Shown: piece by piece, positions 374 to 41,308 of the stretch
Position numbering within the stretch: position 1 is the stretch's first letter
Layout: the number at the start of each line of letters is the position of its first letter
Notes under the pieces: generated by a model
Told to the model about the DNA's origin: nothing
Database searches by the model: none
Seen by the model: the letters and a program-made list of their open reading frames with translations, nothing else
DNA from: an uncultured Gammaproteobacteria bacterium
GTDB lineage: Bacteria; Pseudomonadota; Gammaproteobacteria; GCA-001735895
Direction: 5' to 3'
Assembly: GCA_937984095.1 (NCBI GenBank)
Contig: CALJYH010000057.1
Coordinates: 1 to 44,032, forward strand
Length of the DNA: 44,032 nucleotides
Position numbers and translations under genes: made by a program

Positions 374-2034
<1,661 letters not shown>

Positions 2035-37206: not shown

Positions 37207-38433
37207 TTATTGATTTTGCACCATCACCCGAGTCGCAAGCGCATGCGATATTTCCGCATGCGTTTTAGTGATTTCGTCACCCGGGGAAAAGTGAATTAAC
37301 TCATCGCACATGGCTTCGAAACGCTGCTGACCCCGCCCCTTGGCGGCCTGGTCAGAGGTTATTCCATAAATATACTTGCCACGCGCCCGGGCATAACCGC
37401 ATTCAAAGCCGGTCCAGGCTTCGGCTTCCACGCCTTCCAGGATTACAATGACGATATCAGCTTTATCGAGTTCATTCTCGTAGCAGGCCTGCAACTCTCG
37501 TTGGGTCATATTCTCGATATCAAGTTCCATGTCATGTTGCGGAATGAGTATCTCCATGTAGGGATTATCTTCGGTAATCATATCGCGTAACGCGAGATTC
37601 CAGACCCTCGCCGCCTGCGAGCTGTTGTAGGCAGCGAGATAGGCTCGCACGCCATGATGAATTCCCATGTTGACGTTATGCGTTATCGATTCAGGCTCCA
37701 GGTTGGTTTCCTTCTCCGCCGCAATCTGCAATGCATCCTTGAGTGCGATTTCGCCTGTTATTAGTGCGTGACTGACAATCGCGCCATTGATATTTGGCAA
37801 ATATCGCTGCCTCGCGATATCGTCGAGCGTTCTCACGGTGCCGCTGGTGTAAACCGGGATCGAGACGTCGTGACTGAGTTGTTCCGTCAGCGCCAGGACT
37901 TCGTCGGTTTCAGAATCCAGCCGTTCTGTGCCCTTGTGTACGATTCCAGCAATTCCCGTCATCTGCAGGTCTCGCACTAAATCCTGAGGCATGAACGCAG
38001 TTTGCGTCTTCCAGCCATCGATCATGACATAGCCGCCGCGAGTGGCGAGATGGACGATTATTCCGCCCGGATGACGACTCGCAGCCTCAACCACCAGTGG
38101 CGAGTCGGTTATCGCGATAGGACCGAGTACAACGCGTGCCGCGCCCGCTTCGAACCAGTCATTGATCTGGGTCAGGGTTCTGATACCACCGGCAACCTGG
38201 ATCGGAACATCGGTTTCATTCAGTAATTCCTTGATCAGCTCGGCGTTATTGGCAGGTTTCGATCTCGCTGCATCGATATCGACTATTTGCAGCATTTGCG
38301 CACCATCAGCGACAAAATTCTGCACCGCTTGCCGTGGCGTTATATCGTGGATAATATCGTCGCCTTCGATAGCGGCGCGGGTTATTACCTTTCCTTCCTG
38401 AATTTGAATCTCTGGTATTATCATCATCGCCAT
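37207..38433 (-). CDS. HisA-like TIM barrel fused to nucleoside 2-deoxyribosyltransferase-like domain
   Basis: N-terminus MMIIPEIQIQEGKVITR...QVAGGIRTL...HLATRGGYVMIDGW resembles HisA; C-terminus RAYLAAYNSSQAARVW...NELDKADIVIVILEGVEAEAWTGFECGYARARGKYIYGI resembles NDT/YtoQ-type proteins. Confidence 0.8.
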   Translation of the reverse strand: MAMMIIPEIQIQEGKVITRAAIEGDDIIHDITPRQAVQNFVADGAQMLQIVDIDAARSKPANNAELIKELLNETDVPIQVAGGIRTLTQINDWFEAGAARVVLGPIAITDSPLVVEAASRHPGGIIVHLATRGGYVMIDGWKTQTAFMPQDLVRDLQMTGIAGIVHKGTERLDSETDEVLALTEQLSHDVSIPVYTSGTVRTLDDIARQRYLPNINGAIVSHALITGEIALKDALQIAAEKETNLEPESITHNVNMGIHHGVRAYLAAYNSSQAARVWNLALRDMITEDNPYMEILIPQHDMELDIENMTQRELQACYENELDKADIVIVILEGVEAEAWTGFECGYARARGKYIYGITSDQAAKGRGQQRFEAMCDELIHFSPGDEITKTHAEISHALATRVMVQNQ

Positions 38434-40735: not shown

Positions 40736-41308
40736 TCAGTTGGCGGCAAGTTCCGGATTGAAGGCGGCCGGGAATTCCCGTTTGCGTTGCCAGTCTTTGA
40801 GCGGTTGAATGTAGGGCAATTCACCGTTATCGCGGTACCAGGAGTCAACCGCGAATCTCTCGTTGCTGTCAATTTCGACTATCGTCGCAGTCCAGTGTGT
40901 CAGAAACCATACAATACGGCGGTCCTTAAGATCGACGCGATGCCACTTCAACAGTTCGAGATCTTCTAGCGCCCGCAGGTACTGAAAGGTGTTGGTTGAT
41001 TCATCGATACAGTCCATCTGACCGAAAATATCAGACCCGGGGTAATTTCCCGCTTTATCAAGATAGGCACCGGATAGTTCGCCACTGATACGCTCCATGG
41101 TTGCAACAGCACGCCTGATCGCCTGTTTTTCCGAGTAGCTGTCGACAACGCCTGTCGCAAATATGGCCCTGACCTGGTTCCAGTGCGCGTCGTTGTAGTG
41201 AATTTCCTGGGTTGTCTTGCAACCGAAGTCATAGCATTGCACGAAGTAGGGCGCGGCGACCGTGGGAGTCGTCACCACGAGTAAAAACAAAATTCGTAGA
41301 GCTAACAT
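40736..41308 (-). CDS. Hypothetical predicted periplasmic protein
   Basis: Signal peptide ([19 protein letters not shown]), then [16 protein letters not shown]...[28 protein letters not shown]; lies between nudJ and mnmA. Confidence 0.7.

Follow-up and report, generated by a model that had tools for sequence, protein, structure and literature searches.

A conserved gammaproteobacterial gene fusing a HisA-like barrel to an NDT-like domain

Introduction

What does a HisA-like barrel do once it is joined to a nucleoside 2-deoxyribosyltransferase (NDT)-like domain, and is it still an enzyme of histidine biosynthesis? Textbooks use HisA as a model of how barrels evolve (HisA/HisF/TrpF/PriA). The question is raised by one gene in a 44,032-nucleotide stretch of DNA from an uncultured gammaproteobacterium; we refer to the whole analysed stretch as the window. 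An original prediction, made from the sequence alone, described the gene as a HisA-like barrel with lost catalytic Asp residues fused to an NDT-like domain. Here, we follow up that description by comparison with genomes of the same genus and beyond, and consider what the fusion protein may do.

Gene and domain architecture

A single uninterrupted frame of 408 amino acids plus stop, the complement of positions 37207–38433 (ATG at 38431–38433, stop at 37207–37209), holds both domains. The gene is thus on the minus strand, a point on which the original prediction was silent; the motifs that it quoted (IPEIQ, HLATRGG, IVHKGTERLDS and GFECGYA) all occur in the translated protein exactly as given. 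The N-terminal part is HisA-like, as proposed, with a Pfam match to PF00977 (His_biosynth) over residues 4–229 (E = 8.5e-40, 137 bits; positions 37747–38424, minus strand). The NDT-like domain (residues ~265–365; positions 37339–37641, minus strand) matches PF05014 (Nuc_deoxyrib_tr; E = 2.3e-9, 37.9 bits against a cut-off of 28.8), and relatives of the fusion likewise exceed this cut-off. PF15891 is also matched, at 30.3 bits with a cut-off of 30. The proposed NDT-like nature of the C-terminus is borne out further by matches to PDB profiles and by profile alignments to solved NDTs and, in hhalign at 97.9%, to NDTs found here, and family conservation extends past residue 365 to residue 408.

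The fusion of a HisA-like barrel and an NDT-like domain is confirmed. It also appears to be undescribed, as the original prediction supposed: no paper combining HisA with a nucleoside 2-deoxyribosyltransferase in a fusion was found in the open-licence literature, which is weak evidence of absence. Other fusions of HisA/F proteins are known, with HisH and HisIE (PMC11237513).

An AlphaFold model computed from 16 close sequences has a mean pLDDT of 55.6. The C-terminal half is mostly below 50 and the barrel half alone is usable; the latter matches HisA and PriA structures.

Conservation and genome context

The C-terminal domain of the fusion occurs in 24 of the 31 genomes of the genus (the window's own counted), and one additional genome, G001, has a contig-end fragment of the fusion only. 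The genus members include a scaffold of the Olavius algarvensis Gamma 3 endosymbiont. Two of the 24 copies (L057 on G018:C61 and L056 on G023:C95) are split into two overlapping frames within the NDT-like half, by a frameshift or an assembly error. The fusion was not found in ten genomes from two sister genera of the family. A draw of 369 genomes from the class yielded one more fusion (G253/L072, positions 1417–2718 of that locus, minus strand), from another gammaproteobacterial family. This homologue has 433 amino acids and is 40% identical overall; its barrel is 44% identical to that of the fusion, versus 31% to canonical HisA. There was no further strong match in a phylum draw of 399 genomes, and another draw from the class, with G253 at its centre, brought no additional fusion lineage.

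Comparison of the window copy with a relative (L003) gives dN of 0.020 and dS of 0.414, hence dN/dS of about 0.05, with both halves similarly constrained. A chance fusion created by assembly or frameshift, or a paralogue in decay, is therefore very improbable. Such an origin would fit the two split copies, a Thr-to-Pro change in the phosphate loop of the window copy alone (T105P), and the fact that most of the assemblies compared are metagenome-assembled genomes (MAGs), but it is contradicted by a frame that is intact in most independent genus assemblies, mostly in the same chromosomal place, as well as by the dN/dS value, which is not that of a decaying pseudogene. Conservation this strong means that the joined gene has a useful function.

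The gene is solitary, and the genes next to it are encoded on the other strand. One flank carries, on that other strand, fumC, a lytic transglycosylase gene (slt), a glutathione S-transferase gene (gst), a class I aldolase gene (fba) and a DUF4156 lipoprotein gene; the other carries a low-molecular-weight phosphatase gene and hflD-mnmA. Most relatives share the order fumC-slt-gst-fba-lipoprotein, fusion, phosphatase. These neighbours are functionally unconnected and provide no pathway link; because the gene stands alone, a nucleotide role has no pathway context.

An anti-phage defence function was rejected, as PADLOC models gave no match to the fusion at E ≤ 0.1, and phage origin was rejected because PHROG matches are weak. 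A plasmid location for the fusion was also rejected, as no plasmid match spans 80% of the protein and the C-terminal domain by itself matches nothing there. Rfam places no RNA element at the fusion gene, its three tRNAs lying elsewhere. Conserved next to mnmA in the genus is a gene (window positions 40736–41308, minus strand) for a 190-amino-acid protein with a signal-peptide-like start and no Pfam match at E ≤ 0.001.

The HisA-like barrel

The fusion resembles HisA (ProFAR isomerase; PF00977, TIGR00007) in having a (beta/alpha)8 domain from end to end, GGIR (residues 82–85), D52 and D54. It is unlike HisA in that the catalytic residues are all replaced, a C-terminal domain is added, the gene lies outside the his operon and the protein scores below the equivalog cut-off. 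Residues were compared with L055, the canonical HisA of this genus, using an alignment of 17 fusion sequences from the genus. As had been claimed, both catalytic Asp residues are lost: D8 of the reference is replaced by Q10 (Gln in 16 of the 17 sequences, His in one) and D130 by A130 (Ala, Val, Ser or Thr in genus fusions, with Asp retained solely in the distant L072). Loop 6 is altered too, T167 being replaced by K167 and D172 by L172 (Lys or Arg, and Leu, Met or Asn, respectively, in the aligned genus fusions). The corresponding HisA motifs are IPAID for the first Asp, GID for the second (D127 in T. maritima) and TDINRDG for loop 6. The loop-6 Thr and Asp make up a third catalytic element of HisA, the loss of which adds to the earlier description.

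None of the 17 sequences restores the lost residues or has an acidic residue back at those positions, and the window protein scores 141.5 bits against TIGR00007 (the NCBIfam HisA equivalog), for which the cut-off is 228.95. For these reasons the losses, as read from the alignment, are not due to chance, and the alignment shows the barrel to be stripped of its ProFAR isomerase residues.

Could it nevertheless be a diverged HisA that still carries out the histidine step? The strong PF00977 match speaks for this, but both Asp residues, the Thr and the loop-6 Asp are all replaced and the equivalog score is low. In addition, a canonical hisA adjoins hisH and hisF in one genus genome (G002) and was detected in most others, strong evidence that the fusion has no part in histidine synthesis. 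The placement of the fusion barrels in a clade of their own (support 100/99) agrees with this. The window's own assembly, which is 62.7% complete, has no second hisA in view, so the point about a separate hisA rests on close relatives. We consider a retained histidine function scarcely credible and rejected it, in agreement with the original prediction. The fusion is a paralogue from the HisA superfamily with a novel domain architecture, neither a functional HisA nor a proven NDT enzyme. This serves as a warning for annotation pipelines, given that the label HisA would be wrong for this gene.

PriA, the HisA/TrpF bifunctional isomerase, is among the closest solved folds and sequences to the fusion barrel. 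Its catalytic Asp (D175 in M. tuberculosis PriA; PMC9088769) has no equivalent in the fusion.

Comparing both ProFAR phosphate sites by sequence, we see that GGIR and G104 of the N-terminal one are kept and that the C-terminal motifs are changed from SGG to SGT (T199) and from GRAL to SHAL. At a position of the GGIR phosphate loop next to G104, codon 105 (window positions 38119–38121) encodes Pro in the window copy alone and Thr in 16 aligned relatives. The barrel also has a new conserved set: E8, H29, H128, T131-R132, D139, T143-Q144-T145 and H166. That replacements such as E8, H29, H128, T131, D139, T143-Q144-T145 and H166 are conserved speaks for a new function and against free decay.

One way to account for this set is that the barrel itself is the active enzyme, catalysing a new reaction through E8, Q10, H128, T131, D139, H166 and K167, with the NDT-like domain as an accessory or as a second step. 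The new residues are coherent, (nearly) invariant and located on the strands that bear the HisA active site, and the GGIR phosphate loop is kept. However, the set in L072 is another one (D6, E8, N127, D129 and T166), so that the new residues are not constant family-wide. We regard a catalytic barrel as rather unlikely.

The NDT-like domain

The NDT half has the strand-1 Tyr, the IPQxD stretch and the nucleophile Glu of the NDT family (PF05014, PF15891). The Glu of GFECGYA, which was stated to be kept, is E344; it is invariant within WTGFECG and aligns with the nucleophile Glu of the FELG motif. Y265 is also invariant and aligns with the strand-1 Tyr of IYLA in NDTs. Both residues are present in the distant L072. 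The conserved tyrosine of NDTs positions the catalytic Glu (PMC12645435).

To regard the NDT active site as intact is, however, an oversimplification: a Tyr takes the place of the acid/base Asp, which had been overlooked. In an ungapped profile alignment, Tyr318 occupies the Asp position of the Tyr-Asp-Glu triad in every member, the distant one included; the position is eight residues before D326, and NDT enzymes mostly have Asp or Asn there. One helical turn beyond Tyr318 is E321, which L037, the genus member that has diverged furthest, lacks. The triad of DNPH1 consists of Y24, D80 and E104; E104 is the nucleophile and D80 is the acid that protonates the base (PMC10603095). The nucleotide N-glycosidases DNPH1/Rcl and MilB share the fold family and the Tyr and Glu of the triad with the fusion. 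Unlike the fusion, which has no D80 equivalent and whose NDT-like domain sits behind a HisA barrel, they are stand-alone enzymes. With the triad Asp missing, the C-terminal domain may have no activity.

The main rival to the reading developed below is a double pseudoenzyme. Both halves may be catalytically dead, the protein acting as a metabolite sensor or regulatory partner that binds phosphoribosyl metabolites or nucleotides. This would explain why all HisA catalytic residues are gone and the NDT Asp is Tyr in every member, yet purifying selection is strong. What it does not explain is the invariance of Glu344 and Tyr265 even in the distant homologue, since neither would be needed in a dead site. 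A protein without any catalysis is, in our assessment, somewhat unlikely, although a better candidate than a catalytic barrel.

A putative function

So, what might the fusion do? In the NDT fold, a Tyr-Glu pair attacks C1' of a (deoxy)ribosyl group. The reading that we favour, tentatively and short of even odds, is a neofunctionalised HisA paralogue in which a ligand-binding barrel is combined with a putative N-glycosidase or ribosyltransferase that uses the Tyr/Glu pair. The barrel would most likely bind a phosphoribosyl-type or related small ligand, as suggested by the kept N-terminal phosphate loop (GGIR...LG) and the conserved set of its own that it has gained. The C-terminal domain would most likely cleave or transfer the N-glycosidic bond of a nucleotide-like substrate via a covalent Glu344 intermediate, and the barrel may supply, select or sense the substrate for it. 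Given the loss of the acid Asp, the leaving group might be one with little need of protonation, such as a pyridinium (nicotinamide), a speculation from general glycosidase chemistry; alternatively, another residue, for example E321, might conceivably take over.

This assignment draws on the single uninterrupted frame, the recurrence of the fusion, the separate canonical hisA, the low dN/dS, the invariant E344 and Y265 and the alignment of Y318 with the Asp position. Several observations weigh against this tentative assignment of a binding barrel and a glycosidase or transferase domain. The triad Asp is absent, genus members have changes (SGT, SHAL) in the C-terminal one of the two phosphate sites, and the gene is solitary. 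Further, the structure model is poor, so any active-site geometry is provisional. The original prediction, in which the barrel may feed a glycosidase or transferase in nucleotide salvage, sanitation or signalling, is partly supported; nucleotide binding, feeding between the domains and those roles are conjectural. The NDT-like partner domain points toward a testable function.

In a bolder version of the same idea, the family would represent a novel class of N-glycosidases or ribosyltransferases: the stripped HisA barrel would hand a phosphoribosyl or pyridinium nucleotide, such as NMN, NaMN or a ribotide intermediate, to a Tyr-Glu NDT-fold domain that dispenses with the acid Asp. It would link histidine and purine ribotides with nucleotide turnover. 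We consider this a long shot.

Evolution and related fusions

In the barrel of L072, Glu replaces the first catalytic Asp, but the second one is still there, as are GRAL and the Thr of loop 6. HisA chemistry was thus probably lost stepwise, and L072 is an apparent intermediate, judged by its residues, in the repurposing of HisA. A natural family without the HisA catalytic residues, together with a member that looks half-way, would constitute a real evolutionary series of repurposing.

In the tree, the clade of fusion barrels is apart from canonical HisA, from HisF and from a second HisA-derived fusion found in this genus. How these clades branch relative to one another is uncertain because several branches are long. 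The second fusion (504 amino acids; L054:1306–2820, plus strand; L049:481–1995, minus strand; L050:1535–3049, minus strand) combines a HisA-like barrel with a class I SAM methyltransferase. It parallels the HisA-NDT fusion in being a HisA paralogue that has His instead of the first Asp (FPAIH) and a new C-terminal domain, but it belongs to a separate clade, its C-terminus is a SAM methyltransferase and neither its second Asp nor the Thr and Asp of loop 6 have been lost. Its gene directly adjoins dapB and is present in about half of the genus genomes. An NDT-like domain was also seen in a 407-amino-acid frame around positions 1501–1779 (plus strand) of locus L094, behind an N-terminus that by eye resembles a PfkB-type sugar kinase.
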